The position numbers and the translations under genes are program-made. Positions 17,695-41,323 of a DNA stretch of 64,000 nucleotides are shown here, in pieces (positions within the stretch are counted from its first letter, which is position 1; every line of letters starts with the position of its first letter). A model generated the notes under the pieces. The model saw nothing but the letters and a program-made list of their open reading frames with translations. It did no database searches and was not told the origin of the DNA. Source of the stretch: Paenibacillus donghaensis (GTDB lineage Bacteria; Bacillota; Bacilli; Paenibacillales; Paenibacillaceae); the NCBI RefSeq assembly GCF_002192415.1, contig NZ_CP021780.1:2604001-2668000 (forward strand). Direction: 5' to 3'.

Positions 17695-17710
17695 ATAGTA
17701 GGGAAAAGAG

Positions 17711-18705: not shown

Positions 18706-18722
18706 GAAGGGAGGAACGTGCT

Positions 18723-19651: not shown

Positions 19652-19672
19652 AGGAGACGGGAGGGAAACCAA

Positions 19673-24334: not shown

Positions 24335-25384
24335 TTAGGCTGGGGTCACAGCCGCGGGTGCTGCACAGGACAAACGTTCCGTGAAGAGGGTGTCCACCAC
24401 CGTCTTCACACTGGTGCGGCTGTCACCGCTCATGGAGTCTACGAGTAAATCTACCGCGGTAATGGCCAACAGCTCCTTCTCCACATGAATGGTGGTCAGC
24501 TCGGGCGAGACAACGATGGATTCGCGGATGTTATCGAAGCCGATCACGGAGACATCCTCAGGAACATTCAGTCCAAGCTCTGCCAGCGTCTTCATTACAC
24601 TGATGGCAATATAATCGTTCTCACAGAATAGTGCAGTCGGGAATCCGCCTGAAGCCTGCTTGTACGCCGACAGCTGCTCCTTGAAGGATTCCTGTACCGA
24701 AAGGACGGTAGGGGAAACTGTAAACACGCGAGAGTCCGGCAGATCCAGATTTAATTCCTTCAAGGCGCGTTTGAAGCCACGCTTACGTGAGTCGAAGTTG
24801 TGAATCCGCACGGAGGAGGCAACGTAGCCAATTTCGCGATGGCCGATATCATGCAAGTGAACAGCTGCCTGATGAGCGCCCATTATGTTATTAATCTCAA
24901 CAAAATGAATCGGAAGCGTCTCATACAGGGTATCCAGCACCACGATGCTGGGCATTTTCGCCGCGATAGTGGCAACTTGCTCCCGGGTGAGATTGGTGCC
25001 GAGCAGGATTACACCGTTGCCGGAATTCTCATCGGCGACCAACTCGATATCACGCTCGAAGAATTCCATATCTACAGAGGAGAAGAGCATGGAATAACCC
25101 TTGGAGCGGGCGCGCTCCTCCGTATGCTGGATCAATTCACGGAAAAATGGCTGCTGGTAGAAGTCCTCCAGTACAATCCCCGAATTGGTGAAGGCCAGAA
25201 AAAGCAGCGTTTTTGCTTGTTTGGCTGGAGCCGCAGGTTTAATCCGGGCGGCATAGCCCGAATCCTTGGCGATACGCAGAATCCGGTCGCGTGTCTCAGG
25301 CCCGATTCCCGGTTTGCCGTTTAAGGCCAAGGAGACTGCTGCTTTGGATACATTAGCTATCTTCGCAATATCTTCCATCCTCAT
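24335..25384 (-). CDS. LacI-family transcriptional regulator
   Basis: This is a sugar-responsive repressor of 349 residues from ATG 25384. GGAG lies 9 nt before it and helix 1 begins at MRMEDIAKIANVS. An in-frame ATG at 25399 has no good ribosome site. The N-terminal helix-turn-helix and hinge helix (KAAVSLALNGKPGIGPETRDRI, written here as one segment of residues 14-35) are followed by a periplasmic-binding-protein-like effector domain with LFCENDYIAISVMKTL and VSVIGFDN. It is divergent from the truncated isomerase and GH78 genes, so regulation of rhamnoside or pectin-side-chain use is likely. The AT-rich divergent region carries repeated TTAAGTTA-type sequences that could be its sites. Confidence 0.9.
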   Translation of the reverse strand: MRMEDIAKIANVSKAAVSLALNGKPGIGPETRDRILRIAKDSGYAARIKPAAPAKQAKTLLFLAFTNSGIVLEDFYQQPFFRELIQHTEERARSKGYSMLFSSVDMEFFERDIELVADENSGNGVILLGTNLTREQVATIAAKMPSIVVLDTLYETLPIHFVEINNIMGAHQAAVHLHDIGHREIGYVASSVRIHNFDSRKRGFKRALKELNLDLPDSRVFTVSPTVLSVQESFKEQLSAYKQASGGFPTALFCENDYIAISVMKTLAELGLNVPEDVSVIGFDNIRESIVVSPELTTIHVEKELLAITAVDLLVDSMSGDSRTSVKTVVDTLFTERLSCAAPAAVTPA

Positions 25385-25440
25385 GGGTTGATTCTCCATT
25401 CGTTCATCAAAATTCCTGTAAACAAGTTAATTCTACTACT

Positions 25441-25695: not shown

Positions 25696-25839
25696 ATGAA
25701 GAAGCTAAAGCTTGGTTATGCTCCGACACGGCGGTTCACATTTAGCGCAGAAGATGCCTTCCGCTACAAAGTAACGATCCGCCAGAAGATGGAATCCTTC
25801 GGACTCTGCGGCGCTTTAATGTTCCCTTCACTTATGTGA
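25696..25839 (+). pseudogene. 5' remnant of an L-fucose/arabinose-isomerase-like gene
   Basis: ATG 25696 has a strong ribosome site (GGAGGAAT, 25683-25690) and encodes MKKLKLGYAPTRRFTFSAED followed by about 18 residues ending in KMESFG. This N-terminus looks like that of fucose-isomerase-family proteins of about 480 residues. After residue 38 similarity stops, and a TGA follows at 25837-25839. The next 80 bases read openly in another frame (RRFNVPFTYVTNCRVDDPVF), without a family I recognise. This looks like a deletion that removed most of an isomerase gene but kept its translation start. Confidence 0.6.
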
Positions 25840-25920
25840 CGAACTGCAGGGTCGATGATCCTGTTTTTGAAAGGGGTTTCACCAATTCTGGAGTTGATCT
25901 AAATAATGGAGGAACTTGTG

Positions 25921-28596
25921 ATGACAATTTCGGTTACAGGCTGCAGGACTGAATATTTGGACAATCCGCTGGGACTCGACGAGCTGCATCCACGCCTGTT
26001 CTGGAGGCTGGAATCAGAAGGGGCGGCTGCAGCACAGACTGCGTATCAGATTCTGGTGACTGCCACCCGGGAGGGGCTGGATCAGGATGAAGGCGATATG
26101 TGGGACAGCGGCAAGACGGACAGCAGTGAGTCCACCCATATCAGCTATGAAGGTAAGGCGCTTCAGGCCGAAAGCACCTATTATTGGAAGGTCCGTGTGT
26201 GGGATGAACAGCATAAGATATCGGCCTGGAGCGAACCGGCGCTGTGGAGTATGGGCATCCTGGCCCGTACCGGCTGGAAGGCCAAATGGATTGGCCGCAA
26301 AGCCGAAGCGGATCTGAACAGGCAGCCTGCGCCCTTTTTCCGCAAGGACTTTATATTGAGGTCTGAAGTGAAGCGGGCAGTGGTCTATGCCACGGCGCTT
26401 GGGCTGTACAATCTGAGAATGAATGGCCAAAAGGTAGGTGACCTGTTCACCCCGGGCTGGACGGATTACGATAAACGGGTTCAGGTTCAGACCTACGATG
26501 TTACGGACCGAGTGACGCAGGGGGATAACGCTTTGGGCGTTATTCTGGGCGATGGCTGGTATGCAGGAACGGTTGGCTTTATTTCAGACAAGATATACGG
26601 CGAGCGCCCCTTTCTCTTTCTGCAAATGTCTGTAGAGTACAAGGACGGCACGAAAGAGCGGATCATCACGGATGACAGCTGGAAAACAACAAGAGGCCCT
26701 ATAGAGTATTCTGACATGATCCTGGGCGAGAGTTATGATGCGACCCGGGAACTGCCGGGCTGGGACCGGGCAGGTTATGATGATTCCGGCTGGGAGCTGC
26801 CGGACATCCGGCCGGGATATAACGGACTGCTGGTAGCGTCCATGGAACCGCCAATCCGGATTACGAAGACGATTCAACCGTTAAGTGTGCGGAAGACCGA
26901 ATCCGGAACCTATATCTATGATATGGGCCAGAATATGGTTGGCTGGTCGGAAGTGAAGGTCAAGGGTGAACGCGGGACGCGAATTACACTCAGCCACGCA
27001 GAGATGCTGAATTCCGATGGCAGCATGTATCTCGACAATTTGCGGGTGGCGGTGCAGCAGGAGCATTACATTCTGAAGGGCGCAGGCGAGGAGCGGTACG
27101 AGCCGCATTTCACCTTTCACGGTTTCCGTTATGTCGAGCTGGCCGGATATCCGGGAGAACCTGATCTGGATACGATTACCGGCAAGGTGATTCATTCGGA
27201 CACCCCGGTATCGGGCAGTCTCGAAACCTCTGATCCGATGGTTAATCAGCTGTATTCCAATATTACATGGGGACAGCGCGGCAACTTTTTATCCGTGCCG
27301 ACGGACTGTCCGCAGCGGGATGAACGGCTCGGCTGGACGGGGGATGCACAGATTTTTGCCCGCACGGCTTCTTACAATATGGATGTGTCCCGCTTCTTCA
27401 ATAAATTCATGTGGGATATGATTGATGCCCAGCAGCCTTCCGGCGCATTCACGGACGTGGCACCGGATGCCGGCTGGATGCGCTACAAGATGTGGAGTAC
27501 GCGGCTGGACTGGTTCGCTCCCGATAACGCGGGCTGGGGGGATGCCGGTGTCGTGATTCCCTGGACGTTATACCTAATGTACGGGGACGTGCGCGTTCTG
27601 GAAACTCATTATGATGCCATGGTTCGCTGGGTAGAGTATCTGGAGTCGATGTCGGATGATTGGGTACGGCCGGATTATGCCAACTATGGAGATTGGCTGT
27701 CTATCGGTGCGGATACACCTAATGATGTGCTGGCTACCGCCTATTTTGCCTACAGCACGAAGCTGCTGTCCTTTATTTCCAAGGTGCTGGGCAAACCTGA
27801 AGATCAGGAGCGTTTTGAGACCTTGTTCGCCGGAATCGCCGGTGCTTTCCGGGATGCTTTTGTGGCGGCGGACGGCCGTATTCAAGGGAATACACAAACC
27901 GTGTATGTACTTGCGCTGCAATTTGGCCTTTTGACACCGGATCAGCAGACAATGGCTGCCCGGCATCTGGTTCAGGATATTGAAGGCCGGGGAAACCGGT
28001 TGTCTACAGGTTTTCTCGGCGTAGGTTATCTATTGCCTGCACTGACTGACCATGGACAATTGGATGTGGCCTATTCGCTGTTAACCCAGGAAGAATTCCC
28101 CTCCTGGATGTACTCGATCAAACATGGAGCGACAACGATTTGGGAACGCTGGGATGGCTGGACCGAGGAGAACGGGTTTCAGACGCCGGATATGAATTCC
28201 TTCAATCACTATTCCCTTGGCTCTGTGGGAGAGTGGATGTTCCGCTATATGGCGGGTCTGGAGACTGATCCGCAGCAGCCCGGGTTCAAGCATTCCATCA
28301 TCCGTCCGCAGCCGGGCGGGAAGATCACCTCGGTTAAAGCAGGCTACGAAAGCTTGTACGGCAGTCTTAAGGTGGAGTGGCAGCTGGCAGAAGACGGAGA
28401 ATTCCGGCTTACCGTACACATTCCGGGGAACACAACGGCTACCGTATACCTTCCGGGCAGCGAGGCCAAGGTAGAGACAGATGCCCATGCGCTGGCTCAA
28501 TCTATTCCTGCACCAGAAGCTGAATTGCATGAGGCAGCGGCCTTCCGCGTCGGCTCGGGAACCTATAGCTTCACCTCCCGGATTAAGAAAAGTTGA
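25921..28596 (+). CDS. GH78 alpha-L-rhamnosidase, intracellular
   Basis: This enzyme releases terminal alpha-L-rhamnose, 891 residues without signal peptide, so it acts on imported oligosaccharides or glycosides. ATG 25921 is preferred (GGAGGA at 25908-25913) over ATG 25906. Family parts in order: an N-terminal fibronectin-like domain with PRLFWRLES; the Bac_rhamnosid_N domain with YATALGLYNLRMNGQKVGD and FTPGWTDYDKRVQVQTYDVT; a concanavalin-like domain; and the (alpha/alpha)6 catalytic barrel with VPTDCPQRDERLGWTGDAQI, which holds the acidic active-site residues, and ATTIWERWDGW. A C-terminal beta domain ends the protein. It follows a truncated isomerase and a divergent LacI regulator. The YesM sensor gene follows after 182 nt. 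Confidence 0.95.
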   Translation: MTISVTGCRTEYLDNPLGLDELHPRLFWRLESEGAAAAQTAYQILVTATREGLDQDEGDMWDSGKTDSSESTHISYEGKALQAESTYYWKVRVWDEQHKISAWSEPALWSMGILARTGWKAKWIGRKAEADLNRQPAPFFRKDFILRSEVKRAVVYATALGLYNLRMNGQKVGDLFTPGWTDYDKRVQVQTYDVTDRVTQGDNALGVILGDGWYAGTVGFISDKIYGERPFLFLQMSVEYKDGTKERIITDDSWKTTRGPIEYSDMILGESYDATRELPGWDRAGYDDSGWELPDIRPGYNGLLVASMEPPIRITKTIQPLSVRKTESGTYIYDMGQNMVGWSEVKVKGERGTRITLSHAEMLNSDGSMYLDNLRVAVQQEHYILKGAGEERYEPHFTFHGFRYVELAGYPGEPDLDTITGKVIHSDTPVSGSLETSDPMVNQLYSNITWGQRGNFLSVPTDCPQRDERLGWTGDAQIFARTASYNMDVSRFFNKFMWDMIDAQQPSGAFTDVAPDAGWMRYKMWSTRLDWFAPDNAGWGDAGVVIPWTLYLMYGDVRVLETHYDAMVRWVEYLESMSDDWVRPDYANYGDWLSIGADTPNDVLATAYFAYSTKLLSFISKVLGKPEDQERFETLFAGIAGAFRDAFVAADGRIQGNTQTVYVLALQFGLLTPDQQTMAARHLVQDIEGRGNRLSTGFLGVGYLLPALTDHGQLDVAYSLLTQEEFPSWMYSIKHGATTIWERWDGWTEENGFQTPDMNSFNHYSLGSVGEWMFRYMAGLETDPQQPGFKHSIIRPQPGGKITSVKAGYESLYGSLKVEWQLAEDGEFRLTVHIPGNTTATVYLPGSEAKVETDAHALAQSIPAPEAELHEAAAFRVGSGTYSFTSRIKKS

Positions 28597-28778: not shown

Positions 28779-30593
28779 ATGCAGTTATGGAATCATTTCC
28801 GCTACCGGATTTCGGGCATCCGCACAACGCTGCTCTTAAGCTATTTGGTTATTATTTTTAGTTGTATTGCCATGGTGGGAGCAGCCTCCTACTATATTTC
28901 CTACAAATCGATGCTGGAGAAAGTAGAGACGGCCAGCTTCCAGATCGTGCGCCAGATTGAGAATAATATGGACAACGATATGCACAATAAACGCAATCTG
29001 CTGCTGTCTCCCTATTATAATCAGCAATATATAGATGATATCAACGCCTATGCCTCTATGAACAGCGAGAGCAGATTTGTGATCGGACAGAGCTTCGAGG
29101 ACTTGTATCTAAAAACATTCAACACGACTCCAATCACGGACTTCGTCCGTTTTCGGATCTATTACAGCACAGGGGAAATGCTGAGTTCTTCCAATAACAG
29201 CGTTCCCGTGGAACCGGCTGAAGTGAGAAATGAACGATGGTTCAGGGATACGGTGCACAAGGACGGAATGGTGAACTTCATTAACGTTCCAGACTCGGGA
29301 GTTGTCTCCGAAGAGCGGACCATTGCCTACTCGACAGCGATCCTGATTCGCGATTTCGCCAACCCCGATCAATTCATTGTGGTTCGTGCCGATTACAGCG
29401 ACAGCTTATTCCGCAACATTTCCCGGCATGCCGACCTTACAGGGAACAGTAAATTTCTTGTGCTGGATGAGAACAATATCCCGGTTTATGTTACGAAAGG
29501 TTATACAGAACAGCTGATGCAGGATATTCTGTCCCGTATAGAGGGCAAGCAAGGGAAGTTCTGGTTTAATCACGAGGCCAGCCCTTACTTTATCTCCTAT
29601 ACACGTTCAGAGTATTCGGGCTGGAAAACTGTGCTTCTGATGCCGAAGGAAGAAATTATCAGCCCGCTGCACTCGATAAAAACGGCGGTTATGTATACAG
29701 GCGTGTTCGCCTTCATGATCACCTTTCTGCTCTCTATTCTGCTGGGTCGAATGATCACGAAGCCGATTCTTGATTTACATAAAAGCGTCAACCGGATCAA
29801 ACGCGGCGATTTCTCAGCGGGGCTTGATGTGAGCCGCAGAGATGAAATCGGCCGGATCGCAGTGAATTTCAATGCGATGCGCAATGAATTGCAAATGCTG
29901 ATTGAGAACAAATATATATACCAGATCAAGCTGCAGGAGGCAGAGCTGGCGATGCTCTATTCGCAAATCAATCCGCATTTCCTCTACAATACCCTCGACA
30001 GTATTAAGGCTATGGCAGACTATTATGCTGTGGAAGTGATTAGCGAGATGGCACAGTCACTGGCAGATATGTTCCGTTATAACATCAAGAACAGTGATGA
30101 AGTAGTGTCCTTGCGTGAGGAATTAGAGCAGATTGAGGCTTATATCAGAATTCAAAGCTTCCGGTTTGAGGGGAAGTTTCACTATAGTGTGGACGTGGAA
30201 GAAGAACTGTACGATTATCCAATGTTGAAAATGACCTTGCAGCCACTCGTCGAGAACGCAGTCTTCCATGGAATTGAGCCGATGAGAGGGAAAGGCATGA
30301 TTAGGATAACTGCCCGCAAATATGCGGACGGTGTACATCTGAGTGTCAGCGATAATGGGGTGGGCGTCATCGAAGAACGGCTGGCGAAGATCCGGGCAGA
30401 CCTTGTGCGTCCAGTAGTGCAGGAACAAAATCTGAGCTTGTCCTCCGGTGCAGGGATTGGCATTCGTAATGTGTATACCCGCTATGCTATTCGTTACAGC
30501 AACAGAGTGGAGTTCCGGATCGATAGCGGGGAAGGGGCAGGTACGTTGATTACGCTGATTCTTCGGGAGGAAGCTGCAGGAAAGTCGAAATAA
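28779..30593 (+). CDS. Sensor histidine kinase, YesM type
   Basis: This is a membrane sensor of 604 residues that pairs with the YesN-type regulator at 33829. A transmembrane helix at about residues 16-38 and another near 305-325 enclose an extracellular sensing domain. A HAMP segment follows (MITKPILDLHKSVNRIKRGDF). The His_kinase motif QINPHFLYNTLDSIKAM contains the phospho-accepting His, and the C-terminal ATPase has LQPLVENAVFHG, DNGVG and GAGIGIRNVYTRY. Such sensors usually respond to extracellular oligosaccharides and control the neighbouring importer. A cre-like site lies between it and the binding-protein gene. Confidence 0.94.
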   Translation: MQLWNHFRYRISGIRTTLLLSYLVIIFSCIAMVGAASYYISYKSMLEKVETASFQIVRQIENNMDNDMHNKRNLLLSPYYNQQYIDDINAYASMNSESRFVIGQSFEDLYLKTFNTTPITDFVRFRIYYSTGEMLSSSNNSVPVEPAEVRNERWFRDTVHKDGMVNFINVPDSGVVSEERTIAYSTAILIRDFANPDQFIVVRADYSDSLFRNISRHADLTGNSKFLVLDENNIPVYVTKGYTEQLMQDILSRIEGKQGKFWFNHEASPYFISYTRSEYSGWKTVLLMPKEEIISPLHSIKTAVMYTGVFAFMITFLLSILLGRMITKPILDLHKSVNRIKRGDFSAGLDVSRRDEIGRIAVNFNAMRNELQMLIENKYIYQIKLQEAELAMLYSQINPHFLYNTLDSIKAMADYYAVEVISEMAQSLADMFRYNIKNSDEVVSLREELEQIEAYIRIQSFRFEGKFHYSVDVEEELYDYPMLKMTLQPLVENAVFHGIEPMRGKGMIRITARKYADGVHLSVSDNGVGVIEERLAKIRADLVRPVVQEQNLSLSSGAGIGIRNVYTRYAIRYSNRVEFRIDSGEGAGTLITLILREEAAGKSK

Positions 30594-30691: not shown

Positions 30692-32044
30692 ATGAAAAAA
30701 ATAAAAATGGTATCAATGTTGCTCGCAGTATCTTTGGCATTACTTGGTTTGGCAGGTTGCGGAGGGAATAACAGCCAGAATAGTAAAGCCGCAAGCGGCA
30801 ATACAGCCAATTCAGACACAAGCGCCACAGAGACCAAAGCCAAGGACCCGGTTACGCTTAGCTTCGTGATACCCAATACGGTAGATACAGCACCCTTTGC
30901 CCAGTTGTTCGGGGAATTCGAACAGCAGACAGGCAATACAGTCGAGCTACAAGCGCTTCCGGGCGGGGAATTCGACAACATGATGAAGACGCGTTTCTCT
31001 ACCGGTGATTTCCCGGATTTGTTCCTGATGCAGCCGGGTACGAAGCAATACGTCAAGCTGCGCGCGGATGAAATGCTGTATGAGTGGTCCGGCGATGCCG
31101 ATGTGTGGTCCCGAATCATTCCTTCCATGAAGGAAGCCCAGACCCTGGACGGTAAAATCTATGGTGTTCCTTATGGAGCTACCGGTATGTATGGAGTGTT
31201 CTATAACAAGGATGTTTTTGCAAAAGCTGGCGTAGAGCCGCCCAAGAATTATGCCGACCTCATTACGATTGCCAAAAAAATCAAAGCAACGGGTGTTACC
31301 CCCTTCTATGAAGGTGTTAAGGACGGCTGGCCTGCTCAAATCTTCTATCTGACCGGTTGGGTATCGAATGTGGACCCTGCCATCGGAGATGAAGGCGTGG
31401 CTAAGCTGCAGACGAATGAACTGAAGATGAATGCGATCCCAGAGCTGAAGAATCTGTTTGTTAAACATAAGGAGCTTATTGATTTAGGCTTGTATCAGGA
31501 TAACGTACTGGCAGGTACCTTTGATGAGATGCAGACAATGCTTGGCGAAGGCAAAGCCGCAATGGTTTTCAATCTGGACGGCATTGTCCCGCAGCTGGAG
31601 AAGAAGTTCGGCAAAGCGTTCGTTAACGATAAGTTAGGCTTCTTTCCGTTCCCTTCAGACGCTGATCAGGGAGTGGCAGTAGTTACGCCACCGAATCAGC
31701 TGATGATTCCTACACAAGCCAAACATGCGGATGCTGCAGTCGAGTTGGTGAAGTTCATGCTTACACAAGAGATGACTGATCTGTATTATGCTGCCGCTCC
31801 GGGAATTCCAATCTTTGAGAAGGCCAAGGTGGAGCTGGTCCCGGTACAACAGACCGTCAAAGACTTGATGGAAGCCGGTAAATCCCAAATCAACATCCAG
31901 AACCGCCTCACTCCGGTCTTTGCAGATTTCCAGAAGCTGCTGCAAATCTTCTTTATCGACGGTGATGTGGATAAGGCATACAACGATTTCGCAGCCAACT
32001 ATGAGAAGGACGGCAAATCTAAGCTTCTCGAAGGCTTCAAGTAA
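30692..32044 (+). CDS. Sugar ABC transporter substrate-binding lipoprotein, family 1 (CUT1)
   Basis: This is the extracellular receptor for an oligosaccharide importer, 450 residues, with signal peptide and lipobox LAGC (Cys23). Family-1 landmarks: ELQALPGGEFDNMMKTRFST near residue 85, a VPYGATGMYGVFYNKDVFAKAG stretch near residue 160, and WPAQIFYLTGW. The ribosome site is GGGAGG before ATG 30692. Two permease genes follow directly. No ATPase gene is present, so it probably relies on a shared MsmK-type ATPase encoded elsewhere, as is common for CUT1 importers. The pectin-like ligand is inferred from context. Confidence 0.93.
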   Translation: MKKIKMVSMLLAVSLALLGLAGCGGNNSQNSKAASGNTANSDTSATETKAKDPVTLSFVIPNTVDTAPFAQLFGEFEQQTGNTVELQALPGGEFDNMMKTRFSTGDFPDLFLMQPGTKQYVKLRADEMLYEWSGDADVWSRIIPSMKEAQTLDGKIYGVPYGATGMYGVFYNKDVFAKAGVEPPKNYADLITIAKKIKATGVTPFYEGVKDGWPAQIFYLTGWVSNVDPAIGDEGVAKLQTNELKMNAIPELKNLFVKHKELIDLGLYQDNVLAGTFDEMQTMLGEGKAAMVFNLDGIVPQLEKKFGKAFVNDKLGFFPFPSDADQGVAVVTPPNQLMIPTQAKHADAAVELVKFMLTQEMTDLYYAAAPGIPIFEKAKVELVPVQQTVKDLMEAGKSQINIQNRLTPVFADFQKLLQIFFIDGDVDKAYNDFAANYEKDGKSKLLEGFK

Positions 32045-32066: not shown

Positions 32067-32936
32067 ATGAAAGGAAGCAAATACCCTTTGTATTTCGCAT
32101 TTCCGGCACTTGCGGTATTCCTGCTGTTCTTCATAACGCCGACCGTTATCGGCTTCTATTACAGCTTTACCGACTGGAACATTAACGCGGATACAATATC
32201 TTTCAACGGACTGGATAATTACCGGGCGTTGTTTCAAGAGCCGAGATTGCTGACCGCTTTTAAGAATACGCTTATATTTGCAGCTGCAGTTACCGTGTTC
32301 CAGAATGTTCTGGGGCTTGGATTGGCACTGATTCTGAACGAGGCACTCAAGGCAAAGAATTTCTTGCGTATGATCTTTTTTATGCCCTATGTCATCTCGC
32401 CGATCGTCATTGGCTATATATTCCGGGCCATCTATCATCCCTCGAACGGTATCATTAATCAAGCCTTGAACTCCGTGGGACTGGGCTTTATGGCCCAGGA
32501 TTGGCTTAATGATCCGAAATTTGCCTTATTCTCAATCATTGTCACCGATTTGTGGCGGGTGACAGGCTTCTCAATGGTTGTCTATCTTGCAGGCCTGCAA
32601 TTTATCTCCAAGGATTTAATTGAGAGCTCATCCATGGATGGAGCGCATTATTGGCAACGCTTCCGCTTCATTGTCTTCCCTCTGCTGGCGGCTTCTTTAA
32701 CCGTGAATGTGCTGCTGGCGATGATTAATTCGATGAAAATCTTTGAAATGGTGATGGTGCTGACAGATGGCGGACCAGGGTATACGACAGAAGTATTCTT
32801 CACTTATATAAGGAATATGTTCAGTACAGGGCAATTTGGATATGCCACCGCGGTCAATCTGATGCTGTTCGTACTGGTTACCTTAATCGGTGTACCGGTG
32901 CTAATGGGCTTGAAGAAGAGGGAGATGGAATACTGA
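32067..32936 (+). CDS. Sugar ABC transporter permease, CUT1 MalF/UgpA type
   Basis: This is a membrane subunit of 289 residues from ATG 32067 (GGGGAG 6 nt upstream). It has six hydrophobic segments. The opening is ALAVFLLFFITPTVIGFYYS followed by FTDWN. The coupling loop is IESSSMDGAHYWQRFRFIVFP near residue 190, and the FEMVMVLTDGGPGYTTEVF segment is typical of MalF/UgpA relatives. The stop (TGA) shares its last base with the next ATG. An open frame extending upstream overlaps the receptor gene and is not used. Confidence 0.93.
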   Translation: MKGSKYPLYFAFPALAVFLLFFITPTVIGFYYSFTDWNINADTISFNGLDNYRALFQEPRLLTAFKNTLIFAAAVTVFQNVLGLGLALILNEALKAKNFLRMIFFMPYVISPIVIGYIFRAIYHPSNGIINQALNSVGLGFMAQDWLNDPKFALFSIIVTDLWRVTGFSMVVYLAGLQFISKDLIESSSMDGAHYWQRFRFIVFPLLAASLTVNVLLAMINSMKIFEMVMVLTDGGPGYTTEVFFTYIRNMFSTGQFGYATAVNLMLFVLVTLIGVPVLMGLKKREMEY

Positions 32937-33760
32937 TGCAGACAGAGAAACGTAGCAGGTTGATTGTGTTAGAAATCGTTGCCTTTGCGCTGGCCATTCT
33001 CATTCTCATCCCTTTCTTCATGATTCTGGTTAACTCCTTCAAGGACATCCGAGAATCCGCATTGTTTGGTCTGGGGCTCCCATCCGCATGGAAGCTGTCC
33101 AACTATAGAGATGTATTCGAGCAGGCCAACATTCTGCGCGGATTCAAGAACAGTGTGATGATCTCCGCTTCAGTAGTTGTGTGTGTCAACCTGTTTGCTT
33201 CCATGGCGGCCTTCGTCATTCAACGGAGGGATGACAAGTTCCTGCGCGGCGCTTTTTATATGTTCATTGTGGGCCTCATCGTCCCGGTCTCCATTGTTCC
33301 GACGATCAAGCTGATGAGCGATCTGCATATCAAAGGCACATACTTCAGTCTGGTGATGTATTACACGGCGGTGCTGCTGCCCTTTGCTATATTCATGCTG
33401 GTAGGATTCATGAAGTCGATCCCGCGTGAACTGGATGAAGCGGCATTAATGGAAGGGAGCAGCTATTTCCGGCTCTATGTTCAAATGATTCTGCCGCTTC
33501 TAATAACGGTGCTGGTCACTGTAACTATCGTGGTGCTGGTGTCCGTGTGGAATGACTTCTTTGGGCCATTCTATCTCATGACGGACAGCACCAAGTGGAC
33601 GCTTGTGCTGCAGGTGTTTAACTTCGTCACTCTGTACAGCACCAATTGGGGCGTTGTATTTGCCTTCATGGTGATGGTGGTTGCCCCCGTACTGATCATT
33701 TACCTGTTCCTGCAGCGTTTTATCATAGACGGATTAACTGCAGGCTCATTAAAAGGCTGA
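32936..33760 (+). CDS. Sugar ABC transporter permease, CUT1 MalG/UgpE type
   Basis: This is the second membrane subunit, 274 residues. The first helix is at residues 10-32, followed by the MalG-type NSFKD segment. The coupling loop reads RELDEAALMEGSSYFRLYVQ near residue 165. The C-terminal FLQRFIIDGLTAGSLKG is the canonical ending of this family, which touches the transporter interior. It overlaps the preceding permease by one base. The response-regulator gene follows after 68 nt. Confidence 0.94.
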   Translation: MQTEKRSRLIVLEIVAFALAILILIPFFMILVNSFKDIRESALFGLGLPSAWKLSNYRDVFEQANILRGFKNSVMISASVVVCVNLFASMAAFVIQRRDDKFLRGAFYMFIVGLIVPVSIVPTIKLMSDLHIKGTYFSLVMYYTAVLLPFAIFMLVGFMKSIPRELDEAALMEGSSYFRLYVQMILPLLITVLVTVTIVVLVSVWNDFFGPFYLMTDSTKWTLVLQVFNFVTLYSTNWGVVFAFMVMVVAPVLIIYLFLQRFIIDGLTAGSLKG

Positions 33761-33828: not shown

Positions 33829-35457
33829 ATGCGCAGAGTATTGATCGTTGATGATGAAAAATGGATACGCAGAGGTCTGATCCAATCAATTGCCTGGGGT
33901 GAATTGCAGCTGGAGCTGGCGGGAGAAGCGGAGAACGGGGACGATGCCTATGCAGTGACAATGGCTGAACAGCCGGATGTGCTGTTTCTGGATATGCGGA
34001 TGCCGGGAATGGACGGCAAACAGCTGCTCGGACTGCTTAGTCAAGAGCTGCCGGAGCTGCTGGTTATTGTAATCAGCGGATATTCGGATTTCGAATATAC
34101 CAAAGAAGCGATCCGTCATAAGGTATTTGATTATTTGCTGAAGCCGGTCCGCAAGGAGGAGCTGAACACTGTACTGGCCAAAGCCTGCAAGGAGCTGCAG
34201 CAGCGTGAGCATAACCGGCGTGCAGCCTTGCAGCACAGAGACGCGGGCTGGGTCCGGGCATTGCTGGACAGTTCTGCGGAAGAAGCAGGTGCTGGTGCTA
34301 CAGACATGACCAAGTCTATGCCGCCAGAGTGGGTGGGCAAGGAGCTTATGGTGCTTATTGGGCAATCCGATGTCTTCCTGGAAGCTGTAGATTTGGATTC
34401 AGCTTGCCTGCTGAGCTGTCTCCGGGAGCAATTGGACCGGGTGAAGCCGCTTCTTTTCGGGCACGGAAGCTGGGCCTTTGAAGTCTCTCTTATGAACGGC
34501 GTTACCCGGAAACTGCTGCTTGTGTTATCCGGAAGCCGGCTCGGGCGGAACGATCTGCAGCGGGTAGGCGGCATTCTGCAGAATGTGCTGAAGCAGGCCG
34601 GTTGTCCCTCGGCAAGTGTCGGGCTCAGCACAATCAAACAGGAGGGAGGGCAGCTTCGGGGAGCTGTGCGGGAAGCGGAGCAAGCGCTGAAGGACAGATT
34701 GCTGGGACAGAGCGATCTGGTTCTGGAGGCTGAGCACAAGCGGGCGGCTTCCACATCCATTTATCCCGGTGAGCAGGAACGGGCCTTTCTGCTTGCCCTG
34801 CAATCCGGGAACTGCACTGCGGCTGAGCGTGAATTCTACGAATTTCTGTCTAAAATCTCAATGGATACGGTGAGCGTGGAGCAGCTGCAGCGAAGCTCGT
34901 TGCTGCTCATGTACGCGGTCGAGAAACAGCTTCAGGCTAAAGGTGCAGATTTCGGACATATTTGCGGGAAATCCCCGCCGGTGTACACGGAAATTCTGGA
35001 TGCGAGAAATGATAAAGATTCAGTTACTGCCATATTCACAGAAGAGCTGATTCCTGCAGTAACCGGCTTTTATAACCGTCTCGGCGAGAAACAGGCCGGA
35101 AAGGTGGTGGAGGAAATGAAGCGCCAGGTGGAAGCGTATTATGATCAAGCCTTGTCATTGCAGGGAATTGCTCAGAGCTGTTATATGAATCCGGACTATG
35201 TAAGCCGGATCTTTAAGAAGGCAACCGGCAAGAGTTTTATTGATTACCTGACCGATGTGCGTATAGGCAAATCCAAGGAATTAATGAAGTCATCAACTTA
35301 CAAAAATTATGAGATCGCACAAATGGTAGGGTATGAGGATTATCGGTATTTTAGCCGGATTTTCAAAAAAAGACTGGGTATGACCATAGGCGAATACCGT
35401 AATTCTGTCCGCCACGCCGATCTTCAAGGGAGAGAAGAACCATGTCGAAACATTTGA
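33829..35457 (+). CDS. Response regulator with AraC-type DNA-binding domain, YesN type
   Basis: This is the cognate regulator of the YesM-type sensor, 542 residues from ATG 33829 (GGAGG 8 nt upstream; the frame is open further back inside the permease gene). The receiver domain (1-120) has acidic LIVDDEKW, phospho-acceptor Asp in VLFLDMRMPGMDG, and the late KPVRKEEL. The middle 250 residues are a variable linker. The C-terminal AraC domain shows two helix-turn-helix units (LQGIAQSCYMNPDYVSRIFK and NYEIAQMVGYEDYRYFSRIF). It sits after the permeases, unlike the usual adjacent kinase-regulator pairing. Its last 16 nt overlap the hydrolase gene. Confidence 0.94.
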   Translation: MRRVLIVDDEKWIRRGLIQSIAWGELQLELAGEAENGDDAYAVTMAEQPDVLFLDMRMPGMDGKQLLGLLSQELPELLVIVISGYSDFEYTKEAIRHKVFDYLLKPVRKEELNTVLAKACKELQQREHNRRAALQHRDAGWVRALLDSSAEEAGAGATDMTKSMPPEWVGKELMVLIGQSDVFLEAVDLDSACLLSCLREQLDRVKPLLFGHGSWAFEVSLMNGVTRKLLLVLSGSRLGRNDLQRVGGILQNVLKQAGCPSASVGLSTIKQEGGQLRGAVREAEQALKDRLLGQSDLVLEAEHKRAASTSIYPGEQERAFLLALQSGNCTAAEREFYEFLSKISMDTVSVEQLQRSSLLLMYAVEKQLQAKGADFGHICGKSPPVYTEILDARNDKDSVTAIFTEELIPAVTGFYNRLGEKQAGKVVEEMKRQVEAYYDQALSLQGIAQSCYMNPDYVSRIFKKATGKSFIDYLTDVRIGKSKELMKSSTYKNYEIAQMVGYEDYRYFSRIFKKRLGMTIGEYRNSVRHADLQGREEPCRNI

Positions 35458-37166
35458 TTCCTGACACACTGATGCTTGAAGAGAGAGCTTTGCACGCCAT
35501 TAACGCGATTGTAGGCATTGCCGACCCTGATCATGACGGCATTCCCTTTTTTGCAGCTGATCTGATGCAGGAGCCTGCCTGCATGACCCATGGAGATTGG
35601 GATTACGGCTCCTCCCACGGGCGGATGATTGATGCGCTGGTGCTGGCCCGCCATATGACGGGTTCGGCAGAGGGCCAAGAGACGGAAGAGAAATACCGCG
35701 CGAATCTAATGTCCTTTTTCAAAGAAGATGGACTTAGCTACCGTCAAGTCAGTCCGGCTCATGATTGGGAACCTAACGCTAATCTGATCGACCAGCGGGC
35801 AGTCATTCTGTCATTGACCTCCTGGTATATGGAGAGCGGGGACCCCAAGGTGAAGGAGGCGGCAGACCGCCATGTGGCTGCTCTGAAGCGGATTGCCATT
35901 AAAGAACGGGACATCTGGTATTATCCCGCCTCTGAATATAAGGAAGGCGGCTGGCCTTCCTCAAATGGAATCCTGCTGCGTCTTGCACCGGACCCGGCCT
36001 CCTTCTGCGGCAGACTGGTCATGCCGCTGCTGAAATATCATGAGGTGACAGGCAACAAGGATGCTTTTGAGCTATGCCAATTCTTTACGGCGCTGATTAT
36101 AGAGCGCAGCGGTGTGTTTAATGAGGACGGCAGCTTTAACACATCGCTTGCCTACCGCAGCGGGCATTTCCACACGCGTGTAGGGACGCTGGATGCGATT
36201 GCCCGGTTCGGGAAGTTTACCGGAAATGCAGCGATGATCGCTTGGGTGAAGAAGAGCTATGATTGGGCGCTGACTGTGGGAACTGCCTTCGGCTGGACTC
36301 CCGGTGATATGCATGAGCAGGCTTATGAACACGAGACTTGCTCGCTGGTGGATCTGATCTCAACCGGGATTACGTTGGCCCAGTGCGGTTATGTAGAGTA
36401 TTGGGGTACCGTAGAACGATTCCTGCGCAATCATCTGACAGAATCACAGCTGCTCGATCTGGATTGGGTGCAGCAATCGGAAGACCGCTCGAACGACATT
36501 CATGGCGATATTTCCTATTATAAGGTAGCGGACCGGACCAGAGGCGCCTTCGCGGGCTACTCCGCCCCGAATGATTTCGTCTGTGATGTGATCGAGGGAC
36601 GGGGACATACCAATGATCTGCAAATCTGCTGCCTCGGCTCGGGAACCCGCGGATTGTTCATGGGCTGGAGCAATACCGTTACAGAGCATCAGGGTACTGT
36701 AAGTGTGAACTTCCTGCTGAACCGCGGCTCTAAATGGCTGGATGTGCATAGCTATCTGCCCCATGAAGGCAAGATTATCCTGCATATCCATGCCGATATT
36801 TCCCGTCTGCAGGTGCGCATTCCCGAATGGGCAGGCTTCACCAAAATCCAATACACACGCGAACGCGGCAGCATTGTAACAACTGGGCACGGCAAAGAGT
36901 CAAGCCGCTGGGTGAACCGCTGCTTCCTGCTGCTGGATGAGGCTTATGAGGGTGAGACAGTGACGATTACGTTCCCTCTAAGCTTGCGTACGACAGTGGA
37001 GACTGCTGTGAATCAGAGCTTTGTCACCGAATGGCGCGGGGATGATGTGGTCAGCATTACCCCGCAGGGCAAGACCAAACCGCTCTACACTTCACGTGTG
37101 GTATTGGGGCAAGCGCCAATGAAGGAAGGCAGCTTGCGGCGTCCGGAGCAGGACTTTATCTGGTAA
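35442..37166 (+). CDS. Cytoplasmic glycoside-hydrolase-like protein of alpha/alpha-barrel type (GH127-like)
   Basis: This 574-residue protein has no signal peptide and overlaps the regulator by 16 nt. Helical repeats of an (alpha/alpha)6 barrel span residues 1-370, and a beta domain ends it. The stretch HETCSLVDLISTGITLAQCG plus YWGTVERFLRNHL resembles the GH127 segment where a conserved Glu and Cys occur. LQVRIPEWAGF resembles their C-terminal beta domain. A later ICCLGSGTRGLFMGW adds further cysteines. By analogy it may remove L-arabinofuranose or a related sugar from imported oligosaccharides. Similarity is partial, so this may be a separate family, and the function is inference. Confidence 0.6.
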   Translation: MSKHLIPDTLMLEERALHAINAIVGIADPDHDGIPFFAADLMQEPACMTHGDWDYGSSHGRMIDALVLARHMTGSAEGQETEEKYRANLMSFFKEDGLSYRQVSPAHDWEPNANLIDQRAVILSLTSWYMESGDPKVKEAADRHVAALKRIAIKERDIWYYPASEYKEGGWPSSNGILLRLAPDPASFCGRLVMPLLKYHEVTGNKDAFELCQFFTALIIERSGVFNEDGSFNTSLAYRSGHFHTRVGTLDAIARFGKFTGNAAMIAWVKKSYDWALTVGTAFGWTPGDMHEQAYEHETCSLVDLISTGITLAQCGYVEYWGTVERFLRNHLTESQLLDLDWVQQSEDRSNDIHGDISYYKVADRTRGAFAGYSAPNDFVCDVIEGRGHTNDLQICCLGSGTRGLFMGWSNTVTEHQGTVSVNFLLNRGSKWLDVHSYLPHEGKIILHIHADISRLQVRIPEWAGFTKIQYTRERGSIVTTGHGKESSRWVNRCFLLLDEAYEGETVTITFPLSLRTTVETAVNQSFVTEWRGDDVVSITPQGKTKPLYTSRVVLGQAPMKEGSLRRPEQDFIW

Positions 37167-37199
37167 TAATTAAAGACTAATAAGCGGGAGTGTGAAGAG

Positions 37200-37859
37200 A
37201 TGAAGACTGTGGTAGCTGTGTATACAGGACAAGGGCTGGCTGATCCGCTGAAGGCGATCTTCAAGGAGCTGCTGCCAGACATCAGATTGGTTAGCATTAT
37301 AGATGATAGCCTGATCGGAGATGTGGTGCAGGCTGGTGGGGTTCCACCCGGTGTAGCCAGAAGACTGGTGCAATATTTCCATAACGGGGAAGAGCTTGGA
37401 GCCGATGTGATTCTGAATACCTGCTCTTCCGTCGGTGAGGTTGCCGATGCTGCGCGGAAATTGATCGGGGTACCTATTGTGAAGATCGATGACTTGATGG
37501 CAGCGAAGGCGGTTGAAGGCTACAGCCGGATTGCTGTGCTGGCGACGCTGCCGTCCACGCTTGCGCCGACGATGCGGCTTATCCAGAGCAAAGCCAAGCA
37601 AGCCGGCAAGGAAGTTACTGTGGTCAATGGCCTTGCGGCCGGGGCTTTCGACGCGCTGGTCTCCGGCAGACCAGAGGAGCATGACGCCATTCTGCTGCAG
37701 ACAGCTATAGAGGTTTCCGGGCATGCAGAAGTCATTGTGCTGGCTCAAGGCTCGATGGCCCGAATGGAGCAGGAGCTGCAGGCTGCAACAGGCATTCCTG
37801 TGCTCTCTTCCCCGCGCTTCGGCATAGAACAGGTGAAGGAACTGCTGGACACTCTATAG
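37200..37859 (+). CDS. Asp/Glu racemase-superfamily protein with only one catalytic-type cysteine
   Basis: This is a 219-residue two-lobed protein of the aspartate/glutamate/hydantoin racemase superfamily. The first-lobe motif ILNTCSSVGEVAD holds the first catalytic Cys (near residue 73). The second-lobe position, usually G-C-A/T-G-M, reads VLAQGSMARME, so the second Cys is replaced by Gln. Two-base racemisation is therefore unlikely. Related one-Cys enzymes include decarboxylases and isomerases. It lies between a GH127-like gene and a DUF1537 kinase gene, which suggests a role on an acid-sugar intermediate. The ribosome site GGGAGTG precedes ATG 37200. Confidence 0.75.
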   Translation: MKTVVAVYTGQGLADPLKAIFKELLPDIRLVSIIDDSLIGDVVQAGGVPPGVARRLVQYFHNGEELGADVILNTCSSVGEVADAARKLIGVPIVKIDDLMAAKAVEGYSRIAVLATLPSTLAPTMRLIQSKAKQAGKEVTVVNGLAAGAFDALVSGRPEEHDAILLQTAIEVSGHAEVIVLAQGSMARMEQELQAATGIPVLSSPRFGIEQVKELLDTL

Positions 37860-37881
37860 GACAAGAGGAAGGTGAGCATGG

Positions 37882-39321
37882 ATGGAGAAGCAGAAGCTGA
37901 GTGAGCTACAGAGCAGTTTCCCAGAACCGGACTCAGAACGCCTGAAAGAGCTGTTATCCCGGGCGATTAAGAGCAATGCCAGTAAAATTATTGTCCTGGA
38001 TGATGATCCAACAGGTGTGCAGACGGTACATGATGTAACGGTAATCACCGATTGGAACATAGAGAGCATCCGGAAGGGATTTCTTACCCCTGAGAAGGTA
38101 TTTTTTATCCTGACGAATTCAAGAAGCTTCACGGAAGCGCAAACGAGTGCCGCACATCAGGAAATAGCCGAGAACATTATGGCCGTATCCCGGCAGCTGG
38201 ATAGAGACTATATGATTATCAGCCGAGGGGATTCCACCATGAGGGGTCATTATCCGCTGGAAACCGAGGTGCTGAAGGATAGTATTGAAAGCAAGGCCAG
38301 CTACACCTTTGACGGTGAGATTCTCTGCCCTTTTTTCAAGGAAGGGGGCCGGTTCACGGTTAATAATATACACTATGTCGCGGAGCATGACCGGCTTACG
38401 CCCATTGGCGATACGGAGTTCGCCAGAGACAAGACCTTTGGCTACACATCTTCCGGGCTGGGGGAATGGGTGGAGGAGAGAACCGGTGGCGCTTTCAGGC
38501 AGGACAGCATGACGATGATTACGCTGGAGGAGCTGAGAGCCTGCGAGATCACGGCTATTGTGAAGAAGCTGAACGCTGTAACCGGCTTCAATAAAGTGAT
38601 CGTCAATGCGCTGGACTATTGCGACCTGCAGGTGTTCTGTATAGCTCTATATGAGTCGTTGGCTGAAGGGAAGAAGTTCCTCTACCGGACAGCCGCGAGC
38701 TTGGTAAGGGTGATTGGCGGAATCAGCGAGCAGCCACTGCTGAGAGCAGAGCAGCTTATCGAGCCGGGAAGCGGGAGTGGAGGACTAATTGTTGCCGGCT
38801 CGCACACTTCGAAAACCACAGCACAGCTGGAGCAGCTGAAGCCTGGCGGCCATGTGGTCATGCTGGAGTTTAACCAGCATTTGATGGTGGAGTCTGAGGA
38901 GCGGGTGCAGCGAGAAATTGCCAGGGTGATTGAACAGTGTACTCTGCTGCTGAGTCAGAATCGAACGGTTGCGCTCTGCACAAGGCGTGAACGGCTGGAC
39001 CTGAACAGCGGCAATAAAGAAGATGAGCTGAGAATATCCGTTAGAATCTCTGACGCGTTAACCCATATTGTCGCCAGTCTGCAGATTAGACCCCGCTTTA
39101 TTATTGCCAAAGGGGGCATTACCTCCAGCGATATCGGAACCAAAGCCTTGAAGGTGCAGCAGGCTATCGTTGCCGGGCAGATCAAGCCGGGCGTTCCAGT
39201 TTGGATATGCGGCGAGGAAAGCAGGTTCCCGCAGTTGCCCTATGTGATTTTTCCGGGGAATGTGGGAGAAGAGTCAACGCTGAAAGAAATTGTAGAGGAG
39301 CTGACCTTATGCGAAAGATAA
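37882..39321 (+). CDS. Four-carbon acid sugar kinase family protein (DUF1537, OtnK/DtnK-like)
   Basis: This probable ATP-dependent kinase acts on short sugar acids such as threonate or erythronate, 479 residues. N-terminal domain: VLDDDPTGVQTVHDV (substrate-binding Asp cluster, residues 34-50) and SRGDSTMRGHYPLE. C-terminal nucleotide-binding domain: the KGGITSSDIGTKAL motif near residue 410, typical of the family. ATG 37882 follows AGGAAGGTGAG. In known pathways this kinase works with a dehydrogenase/isomerase and an aldolase, or with a PdxA2-type oxidoreductase. None of those is here. A DUF849 gene overlaps its 3' end by 13 nt instead, which makes the route unusual. Confidence 0.88.
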   Translation: MEKQKLSELQSSFPEPDSERLKELLSRAIKSNASKIIVLDDDPTGVQTVHDVTVITDWNIESIRKGFLTPEKVFFILTNSRSFTEAQTSAAHQEIAENIMAVSRQLDRDYMIISRGDSTMRGHYPLETEVLKDSIESKASYTFDGEILCPFFKEGGRFTVNNIHYVAEHDRLTPIGDTEFARDKTFGYTSSGLGEWVEERTGGAFRQDSMTMITLEELRACEITAIVKKLNAVTGFNKVIVNALDYCDLQVFCIALYESLAEGKKFLYRTAASLVRVIGGISEQPLLRAEQLIEPGSGSGGLIVAGSHTSKTTAQLEQLKPGGHVVMLEFNQHLMVESEERVQREIARVIEQCTLLLSQNRTVALCTRRERLDLNSGNKEDELRISVRISDALTHIVASLQIRPRFIIAKGGITSSDIGTKALKVQQAIVAGQIKPGVPVWICGEESRFPQLPYVIFPGNVGEESTLKEIVEELTLCER

Positions 39322-40106
39322 TAATCTCTGTTGCCCCAACCTCTGCCCAGGTAACCTCCATCGATCCGGCCGAGCTAGCCAGGGAGGTACTGGACGCAGG
39401 ACAGGCTGGAGCTGCCATGGTCCACATGCATGTAAGAGACAGTGGAGGACAGCTTACTGAGGATACCCGTCTGTTTCAAGATACAGTAGAGCGGATTATC
39501 CGCGAGAGCGACATTGTGATCCAGGCCTCGACGGGGGGGCTGTCTGAGCTGACGATTGAGCAGCGCTGTGCACCTATTCTCTATGACAAGGTAGAGATTG
39601 TCTCCTTGAATGTGGGATCAGTCAATCTTGGGGAGGCCATTTACCGGAACCCGCTTGGCGAGGTGAAGTATTGCGTGGCGCAAATTCTGGAGCAGGGCAA
39701 AATTCCGGAAATTGAAATCTTTGAACTCGGCATGATTCATACCGTACTGGAGCTGGATAAGCAATTTAACCTGCCGAAGCCGATTCTGTTTGATCTTGTA
39801 CTGGGCCATCAGGGCGGCGCACCAGCTACCATTGAAGCCTTAATCGCTTTGCGTAGCTGCGTTCCTCAAGATGCATTGTGGGGAATTACTCATGCTGGAC
39901 GAAGTGATTATACGATTATTACTGCAGCTATCGCGATGGGGGCGAGTCTGGTACGGATCGGCTTTGAGGACAGTGATTATCTTACTGAACGCGAGCGCGC
40001 AAGTAGCAATGCCCAGCTTGTAGCGAAGATCGCGGGTATAATTGAAGCTATGGAACTGGAGGTTGCCAGTCCGGCGGATGTCAGGAAGATGCTGAACGTG
40101 CGGTGA
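39309..40106 (+). CDS. DUF849/BKACE family enzyme (beta-keto acid cleavage)
   Basis: This TIM-barrel zinc enzyme has 265 residues from ATG 39309, overlapping the kinase by 13 nt. Landmarks: IISVAPTSAQ at the N-terminus, the metal-binding HMHVRD near residue 38, DIVIQASTGG, an E-F-lacking EIEIFELGMIH stretch, and a late GHQGGAPAT. Family members (Kce type) cleave beta-keto acids with acetyl-CoA, giving acetoacetate and a new acyl-CoA. Here the substrate could be a keto acid formed from the phosphorylated acid sugar, but no oxidising enzyme is encoded nearby. It is the last gene of the cluster, before a terminator. Confidence 0.85.
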   Translation: MRKIIISVAPTSAQVTSIDPAELAREVLDAGQAGAAMVHMHVRDSGGQLTEDTRLFQDTVERIIRESDIVIQASTGGLSELTIEQRCAPILYDKVEIVSLNVGSVNLGEAIYRNPLGEVKYCVAQILEQGKIPEIEIFELGMIHTVLELDKQFNLPKPILFDLVLGHQGGAPATIEALIALRSCVPQDALWGITHAGRSDYTIITAAIAMGASLVRIGFEDSDYLTERERASSNAQLVAKIAGIIEAMELEVASPADVRKMLNVR

Positions 40107-40417: not shown

Positions 40418-41323
40418 CTACACATGCTGCGTATAGCGGTTCGCCATGCTCAGACTGCGGATGATCTCCTGTTCGCCGGGAGACAGCGGAGCAACTGCAG
40501 CAGCTGCTGCATTCTGCCGCAGCTGCTGCATGCTGCTGGCGCCGGGGATGATCACGGCGACACCGGGATCGGCGAGCGGATATTGCAGCGCGGTCTGGGC
40601 AAGCGTGCGCCCGCCGGTCTGCAGCTTCAGCTCATCCAGCAGTGCAAGCAAGGCTTCCGGGGAGTACCCCAGGTACTCCTTGTCAATCTTGTGCTGCCCC
40701 TGATCGGTCAGCCGCCCGCCCGCAAGCGGGCCGCGGGCAATCAGGCTGATGCTGCTGGCCTTAAGCAGCGGCAGTACGGACTCCTCCGGCCGTCGGTCCA
40801 GGATACTGTACTGGCTCATGACGCTGACGATATTCGAGCGGTTCACATATTCCCTGATTACATTGGGGCGGATGGAGGAGATGCCGTAATAACGGATCAA
40901 GCCTTCCCGCTGCAGCTCCTCGAAGGCCTCGATCGTCTCGTCGATCGGGTCCTCCAGCGTTCCTCCATGCAGCTGATAAAGGTCAATATAATCGGTCTGC
41001 AGCCGCCGCAGACTGTCTTTCACAGCAGTTTTGATATATGCCTTGGACGGGTCCCAGCTCCAGCCTTCCTTGCCGGGAATCCTGCGGTTGCCCACCTTGG
41101 TGCTGAGAATGACGTCCCCGCGGCGGTGGCGGATCGCTTGTCCAACCAGCTCTTCATTCCGGCCATCATCATAAAGATCGGCGGTATCCAAGAAGTTAAT
41201 CCCCAGGTCCAGCGCCTCATGCACAATCGAAACCGCCTGCTGCGGTTCTGTCCCGAGGGACATGCAGCCGAGGGCAATTTCACTTACTTCCAGCTCCGAA
41301 CAACCTAACTTCCGTGTCTTCAT
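40418..41323 (-). CDS. Aldo/keto reductase
   Basis: This NAD(P)H-dependent oxidoreductase has 301 residues and a TIM-barrel fold. The catalytic tetrad regions are visible: Asp and Tyr in FLDTADLYDDGRNEELVG, Lys in VILSTKVGNR, and His in DLYQLHGG. The cofactor-binding end shows GVAVIIPGASS. ATG 41323 has AAGGAG 10 nt upstream. A run of Ala/Gln codons (MQQLRQNAAAAAV) gives repetitive GCTGCTGC DNA near 40490-40540. It is divergent from the tetR-type gene. The physiological carbonyl substrate is unknown. Confidence 0.92.
   Translation of the reverse strand: MKTRKLGCSELEVSEIALGCMSLGTEPQQAVSIVHEALDLGINFLDTADLYDDGRNEELVGQAIRHRRGDVILSTKVGNRRIPGKEGWSWDPSKAYIKTAVKDSLRRLQTDYIDLYQLHGGTLEDPIDETIEAFEELQREGLIRYYGISSIRPNVIREYVNRSNIVSVMSQYSILDRRPEESVLPLLKASSISLIARGPLAGGRLTDQGQHKIDKEYLGYSPEALLALLDELKLQTGGRTLAQTALQYPLADPGVAVIIPGASSMQQLRQNAAAAAVAPLSPGEQEIIRSLSMANRYTQHV

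Follow-up and report, generated by a model that had tools for sequence, protein, structure and literature searches.

The stretch of DNA analysed here, called the window below, comprises 64,000 nucleotides of Paenibacillus donghaensis (contig NZ_CP021780.1, positions 2,604,001 to 2,668,000 of the forward strand), and its centre carries a plus-strand gene row ending in a four-gene module (35442-40106) that we discuss as a candidate acid-sugar operon. The module consists of a distant GH127/GH146-type hydrolase (35442..37166, 574 residues), a protein with the Asp/Glu racemase fold (37200..37859, 219 residues), a DUF1537 acid-sugar kinase (37882..39321, 479 residues) and a DUF849 enzyme of the BKACE family (39306..40106, 266 residues), for the first three of which we use the working names GHx, RAC and KIN. 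Upstream, on the same strand, lie a GH78 alpha-L-rhamnosidase (25906..28596; by eye, the true start may be the ATG at 25921, after GGAGGA), a YesM-type sensor histidine kinase (28779..30593; PF06580, HAMP), the solute-binding protein of a sugar ABC importer (30692..32044; PF01547), its two permeases (32067..32936, with the start chosen at MKGSKYPLY, and 32936..33760; both PF00528) and a YesN-type response regulator (33829..35457; Response_reg and AraC HTH). YesN and GHx overlap by 16 nt, gaps of 33 and 22 nt separate GHx from RAC and RAC from KIN, and KIN and BKACE again overlap by 16 nt, so that coordinates and families agree with a preliminary description of four tightly packed genes joined to a YesMN-controlled importer. 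The module is real and recurring, not a chance arrangement, as confirmed by its relatives in other genomes.

GHx has no Pfam or NCBIfam match, PF07944 (GH127) included, and among 120 listed relatives PF07944 was found in one (P0050); some relatives are named GH127, DUF1680 or beta-L-arabinofuranosidase-domain proteins, many simply 'hypothetical protein'. The predicted fold, an (alpha/alpha)6 barrel with a beta-sandwich, nevertheless matches GH127/GH146 structures including BT_1003 (5mqo), which bears out the GH127-like assignment made beforehand even though Pfam is silent. In agreement with this, the zinc-site pattern Glu-x-Cys plus Cys-Cys (E298, C300, C396 and C397) is invariant in 21 sequences, and a profile alignment pairs the Cys-Cys of GHx with that of 5opj; the site is a sequence pattern, the neighbouring loops being of low confidence in the structure model. 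The same pattern appears as E723, C725, C804 and C805 in PMC10850190, and GH127 includes, according to PMC5698469 and PMC10850190, BT1003, which releases 3-C-carboxy-5-deoxy-L-xylose (aceric acid) from rhamnogalacturonan II (RG-II). We propose that GHx is a GH127-type cysteine glycosidase that would free aceric acid. The closest comparison is the Bacteroides RG-II degradation system with the GH127 aceric acid hydrolase BT1003, reportedly described by Ndeh et al. in 2017, with which the GHx loci share the GH127-type fold, the Zn-Cys pattern and companions of the GH78, GH106, GH140 and GH95 types. Unlike BT_1003, to which it is 14% identical in the structural match, GHx lies behind an ABC importer, has metabolic genes downstream and lacks a Pfam match. 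A distant GHx paralogue (G000:C1:3069735-3071291, 27% identity) occurs elsewhere in the P. donghaensis genome and has counterparts in many genomes of the genus.

RAC belongs to the Asp/Glu racemase superfamily (PF01177, 70.4 bits, cut-off 31), and the best structural matches to its model (pLDDT 95) are allantoin and aspartate racemases. An alignment of 56 rows shows Cys75 in 53 (two gaps, one X), while the position of the second catalytic cysteine is a serine, Ser185, in 54 (one glycine in an out-of-frame fragment, one gap); the 56-row alignment thus lacks the cysteine pair of these racemases, and the one-cysteine reading given earlier holds. With one cysteine only, an ordinary two-cysteine racemase is unlikely, and a single-base proton shuttle or a decarboxylation would fit better than racemisation. 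The fold is that of arylmalonate decarboxylase and the Asp/Glu/hydantoin racemases, and the single-cysteine state is that of arylmalonate decarboxylase, but RAC keeps the first cysteine position and has serine at the second, whereas the decarboxylase carries its cysteine on the opposite side; we take the arrangement in the natural enzyme to be the reverse of that in RAC. RAC is a candidate isomerase because it is the sole protein of the operon without an assigned role.

The assignments of KIN and BKACE to DUF1537 and DUF849, too, are borne out by profile matches (PF07005, 159.6 bits, and PF17042, 119.9 bits; PF05853, 225 bits). At the level of NCBIfam, KIN is nearest to DtnK (NF047819), with 55.8 bits against a cut-off of 450, scores 29.7 of 350 bits with the 3-oxo-tetronate kinase model and has no OiaK (NF042436) match at E<=0.001. 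In a kinase tree from a quick search without bootstrap, KIN stands apart from seven OiaK-like kinases, and the KINs linked to GHx form no single clade but are interspersed with other DUF1537 kinases. The kinase family is shared with the tetronate pathways DtnK-PdxA2, OtnK-OtnC-OtnI and LtnK, reportedly described by Zhang et al. in 2016, but their partners are missing: among the open frames of the window we saw by eye, in agreement with the preliminary description, no standard dehydrogenase, isomerase, aldolase or PdxA2 that would complete a known tetronate route, and the P. donghaensis genome has no PdxA family match. Three Aldolase_II genes sit elsewhere in the genome.

All canonical motifs (HxH, STGG, E and RxGFED) are retained in the GHx-linked BKACEs, and small changes occur in adjacent positions. 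Among NCBIfam models, the 3-keto-5-aminohexanoate cleavage enzyme comes closest to the window protein (220 of 382 bits); PF05853 and the conserved motifs are shared, but the window protein lies in a separate, GHx-tied clade, and its proposed substrate would bar the canonical first step. All 12 GHx-linked BKACEs, from Paenibacillus to Oscillospiraceae and Lachnospiraceae, fall on one side of a branch with support of 100/100 when compared to 14 unlinked rows of the order, which were picked by profile and include 11 different sequences; the program flagged long branches in this tree. The canonical enzyme removes an alpha proton and then attacks acetyl-CoA, and the alpha proton is needed. The family also holds cis-epoxysuccinate hydrolase, which was matched here and which presumably needs no acetyl-CoA.

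An indication of what these enzymes do comes from the exchange of partners across relatives. In a survey of 392 genomes of the order, full-length GHx (at least 900 bits) occurs at 50 places in 45 genomes, not counting the incomplete or split copies of G235, G253 and G068 or distant paralogues of some 25-32% identity; a RuBisCO-like protein (RLP) related to OiaX was counted at 500 bits or more (58 places), RAC at 240 bits or more (54 places) and BKACE at 100 bits or more (23 of 42 rows among the matches listed, 19 weaker rows being dropped). An RLP lies within 20 kb of 43 of the 50 GHx genes, a BKACE within 20 kb of five, both near none and neither near two, namely the second P. donghaensis copy and that of G049, where the RLP is 105 kb away. 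The five BKACE cases correspond to five of the 392 genomes (G000, which is P. donghaensis, G007, G012, G018 and G287), and a search with the RLP query at E<=0.001 finds nothing in any of them, so that in P. donghaensis the RuBisCO-like decarboxylase of an OiaK/OiaX apionate route is not found. In many Paenibacillus and Cohnella loci the usual order is GH78, YesM, importer, YesN, GHx, RAC, RLP and DUF1537 kinase, and the order GHx-RAC-KIN-BKACE is kept in five loci (L014, L032, L048, L096 of G012 and L097 of G007).

A scan of named genomes, in which partner genes were scored by tblastn around the best 80 of 117 GHx loci, gave the same picture: RAC is present in 53 loci, an RLP in 50, a BKACE in eight, and RLP and BKACE together in none; an OiaK-like kinase is present in 49, KIN in six, and again never both. 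KIN and BKACE share the stretch with GHx in six of the 80 loci, including those of Oscillospiraceae and Anaerocolumna. Since RLP and BKACE, as well as the OiaK-like kinase and KIN, are mutually exclusive, KIN and BKACE fill the slot of an OiaK/OiaX-type pair and are a non-orthologous replacement of the kinase and RLP in the same operon position. For three GHx-linked RLPs the best NCBIfam model is OiaX (465-473 bits, cut-off 700), and for two GHx-linked kinases OiaK (498-511 bits, cut-off 700). Both RLPs and BKACEs are suited to beta-keto acids, so a beta-keto acid is likely the common intermediate.

The neighbours of GHx in several loci (GH78, GH106-like, GH42, GH95, GH2 and GH140) point to RG-II side chains. 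In L016 (Paenibacillus oryzisoli) and L018, a GH140 apiosidase (PF13204, 375 bits in L016), an SGNH esterase, GH42, GH95, GH78, GHx, RAC, RLP and kinase follow each other in a row. The second P. donghaensis GHx locus (G000:C1:8053000-8082300; L094, L095 and L108) combines GHx with GH2, GH78, a GH106-like gene, an apiosidase (PF13204, 373 bits), a second RAC, GH42, GH95 and importer and YesMN genes, and we read it as a large locus for RG-II side chains. In GH106-like genes of the c36 type, the match to PF17132 is weak and confined to the N-terminus. At least 23 of the 50 GHx places have a PF13204 apiosidase match no more than 60 kb away, a lower bound because the 51 apiosidase places used come from the matches listed. 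The underlying PF13204 search was run on 344 genomes, a set different from the 392, and found matches in 132. Its match list includes 38 of the 45 genomes that have full-length GHx; G012 has none and six are not shown in it. GH78 is present at 14 of the 15 actinobacterial GHx loci, and 11 of the 15 encode a protein related to the DUF5060/DUF5605 protein from L062, a sister of which matches PF13204 (72 bits); the actinobacterial proteins of L068 and L093 score above the DUF5605 cut-off and have no PF13204 match. Aceric acid sits on a rhamnose of RG-II side chain B, next to apiose.

Based on these comparisons, we consider it about an even chance (roughly 0.5) that the window operon is an aceric-acid operon for an RG-II side-chain fragment, ending in dihydroxyacetone phosphate (DHAP), acetaldehyde and CO2. 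Gene content, co-conservation, the BKACE-for-RLP exchange, the RG-II-type neighbours and the conserved motifs are observed, and from them we infer the substrate and each reaction. The YesMN-regulated importer would bring in an RG-II side-chain oligosaccharide, GH78 would take off alpha-L-rhamnose and GHx would free aceric acid. RAC may then convert the aldose to the 2-ketose HOCH2-CO-C(OH)(COOH)-CH(OH)CH3 by moving the carbonyl from C1 to C2, yielding a beta-keto acid. This product would be a one-carbon-larger analogue of the OiaK substrate 3-oxo-isoapionate, HOCH2-CO-C(OH)(CH2OH)-COOH, with CH(OH)CH3 in place of CH2OH. Aceric acid would thus reach the beta-keto acid by isomerisation and without oxidation, which would explain the usual absence of dehydrogenases and of the ApnO-like gene.

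In most relatives, the OiaK-like kinase followed by the OiaX-like RuBisCO-like decarboxylase would act on the RAC-type ketose; RLPs of the apiose route decarboxylate or transcarboxylate 3-oxo-isoapionate 4-phosphate, as stated in PMC6302742. For P. donghaensis, the presence of BKACE where the OiaX-type protein is missing suggests that it handles the branched beta-keto acid, and two variants can be envisaged. In the first, KIN would phosphorylate the primary hydroxyl and the zinc of BKACE would drive decarboxylation to 5-deoxypentulose 1-phosphate, the substrate of a class II aldolase. In the second, BKACE would perform a retro-aldol cleavage at C3-C4 to acetaldehyde and 3-oxotetronate, which KIN would phosphorylate in the manner of a DtnK/OtnK-type kinase, with loss of CO2 then giving DHAP. 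Both variants would end in DHAP, acetaldehyde and CO2, and the retro-aldol one is slightly preferred because KIN is nearer DtnK than OiaK. The window set is probably an unusual variant of an aceric-acid breakdown operon.

We know of no described route for the use of aceric acid after its release. Titles and abstract openings on aceric acid, RG-II and GH127 mention no catabolic pathway, a weak negative from an incomplete search, and the one paper found to mention both DUF1537 and DUF849 does not link the two in the passages concerned. That the operon encodes the first aceric acid catabolic pathway, with GH127-type release, a one-cysteine isomerase of racemase fold and a CoA-independent BKACE replacing the RLP, is a tentative claim to which we give somewhat less than even odds. 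If true, the operon would close a gap in pectin degradation, aceric acid being among the rarest plant sugars and occurring in RG-II, the most complex plant pectin; two folds would gain new functions, an isomerase in the racemase fold and a BKACE standing in for an RLP; and nature would have provided an experiment in which two unrelated enzymes, encoded in one operon position, carry out one and the same step on a beta-keto acid.

Several observations weigh against the aceric-acid assignment. We know of no aldose-ketose isomerase with the racemase fold, and RAC is absent from 27 of the 80 GHx loci, including all 15 actinobacterial ones and L087 and L089 (Oscillospiraceae), which have KIN and BKACE; another isomerase or route would be needed in the loci without RAC. 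L086 and L088 have RAC and BKACE without KIN. Neither RLP nor BKACE is found in the stretch examined for 22 of the 80 loci, and 20 show none of the RG-II-type hydrolases there. Within the 19 kb of L121, RAC, RLP and kinase occur without GHx. The identity of GHx to GH127/GH146 enzymes of solved structure reaches only some 11-16%, and BT_1003 (5mqo) is no closer to it than arabinofuranosidases are. The OiaX scores do not separate GHx-linked RLPs (465-473 bits) from ApnO-linked ones (439 and 457 bits), the OiaK scores likewise do not distinguish the kinases of the two settings, and the GHx-linked RLPs do not all group together: the main GHx/RAC clade (branch value 98) takes in 29 of their 38 rows in a tree that, like the kinase tree, comes from a quick search without bootstrap and includes 38 of 41 GHx-linked RLPs, three having been left out for length.

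Some of these loci deserve description in their own right. In L086 (7384-11770) and L088, a transaldolase-like gene directly precedes RAC, BKACE and GHx, with no kinase. L121 (1261-15758) holds RAC, an OiaK-like kinase, GH95, RLP, GH42 and a GH106-like gene with no GHx nearby; there, a different hydrolase may set this sugar free. On a Limnochordia contig, L085 (5477-9167), GHx and RAC are followed by transketolase halves, a third solution after RAC that would also fit a 3-C-branched ketose.

Of the alternatives, a canonical BKACE reaction survives best, though we regard it as unlikely. Here, acetyl-CoA would be the co-substrate for the cleavage of a beta-keto acid (phosphorylated or C4), and the products would be an acyl-CoA and a compound of the acetoacetate type, much as the preliminary description had envisaged when it let the route from an imported pectin-like oligosaccharide end in acetoacetate and an acyl-CoA. 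The retained motifs and the nearest NCBIfam model speak for such chemistry, a 3-oxotetronate intermediate would carry the alpha proton required by the mechanism, and class III CoA-transferases lie downstream in L016 and L018, though these are RLP loci (15198-21142, downstream of RLP and kinase, with a Gfo/Idh dehydrogenase, two class III CoA-transferases and an amidohydrolase). However, BKACE alternates with OiaX-type RLPs, which decarboxylate or transcarboxylate without CoA, the family includes cis-epoxysuccinate hydrolase, presumably independent of acetyl-CoA, and C3 of the proposed RLP-type ketose is fully substituted and without an alpha proton, so that the canonical acetyl-CoA-dependent cleavage could not start. 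What stands of the earlier route is thus a recurring atypical acid-sugar module for an imported pectin-type oligosaccharide; its acetoacetate and acyl-CoA ending is not supported and would be most conceivable on a cleaved C4 product.

Slightly further down the scale, and improbable in our estimate, GHx or a neighbour would free apiose, and the kinase and RLP or BKACE would act on 3-oxo-isoapionate itself. OiaK/OiaX-type partners in most relatives and apiosidases near part of the GHx loci are compatible with this, as is an ApnO-like gene in two of the 80 loci, a label that denotes PF16896 and KARI_N matches, no NCBIfam model carrying that name. The D-apionate pathway, said to have been described by Carter et al. 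in 2018, runs via OiaK (a DUF1537 kinase) and OiaX (a RuBisCO-like decarboxylase), and related genes occupy the slot of KIN and BKACE in the relatives; the GHx loci, however, usually have a racemase-fold protein instead of an ApnO-like gene, and the P. donghaensis genome has neither RLP nor OiaK-like kinase but a BKACE and a DUF1537 kinase of another clade. In the 78 of 80 loci without an ApnO-like gene, apionate could not enter by the known way. Moreover, L114-L117, which combine RLP, kinase and ApnO-like gene without RAC (two of the four with an apiosidase relative), have RLPs that form, with that of L118, a distinct branch (94) outside the main GHx/RAC clade; L118 is labelled ApnO-linked in the tree but proved to have no ApnO-like gene, its RLP being near-identical to those of L114 and L116. 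L049 carries an ApnO-like gene as well as GHx, and its RLP groups in the ApnO branch. L119, L120 and L122 have RLP and kinase and neither RAC nor an ApnO-like gene; there, the OiaK-like kinase is accompanied by GntR-like and alcohol-dehydrogenase-like genes (by eye) and no GHx, perhaps for a third acid sugar.

A plausible separate apiose route also argues against the apionate alternative: an operon near 0.58 Mb (L126, 9242-14093, on G000:C1) encodes a FucI/SftI-like isomerase, a split transketolase and an FGGY kinase, with an apiosidase-like gene (L127, 3187-4938; PF13204, 57.5 bits) about 9 kb away, and is likely an apiose/apulose route, so apiose appears to be handled outside the window operon.

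The least probable alternative, a plain beta-L-arabinofuranosidase GHx beside RAC, KIN and BKACE serving a sugar acid unconnected with it, for instance a tetronate or a product of uronate breakdown, draws on DtnK as best model of KIN and on the arabinofuranosidase activity of most characterised GH127/GH146 enzymes (PMC10850190), but is disfavoured by the RLP or BKACE within 20 kb of 48 of the 50 full-length GHx genes, partners not needed for L-arabinose use, and by the missing PdxA and, by eye, tetronate dehydrogenase.

Upstream of GH78, the window retains traces of another sugar operon. A LacI-family regulator (24335..25399, minus strand) is 64% identical to the LacI that stands beside the isomerase/transketolase/FGGY-kinase operon in several relatives, and between it and GH78 lies a decayed FucI/SftI-like isomerase fragment (25696..25889, plus strand), a deletion scar of two pieces with 83-86% identity and the middle missing, whose intact copy remains at G000:C1:584659-586086. 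Judging from the remnant and the LacI type, a deletion appears to have removed such an operon from the locus. On the other side, an aldo/keto reductase gene (40418-41323) follows BKACE directly on the opposite strand and was not seen at that place in L096, and an open frame at the window end (63622-63993) is 36% identical over 122 residues to a GH42 family member.

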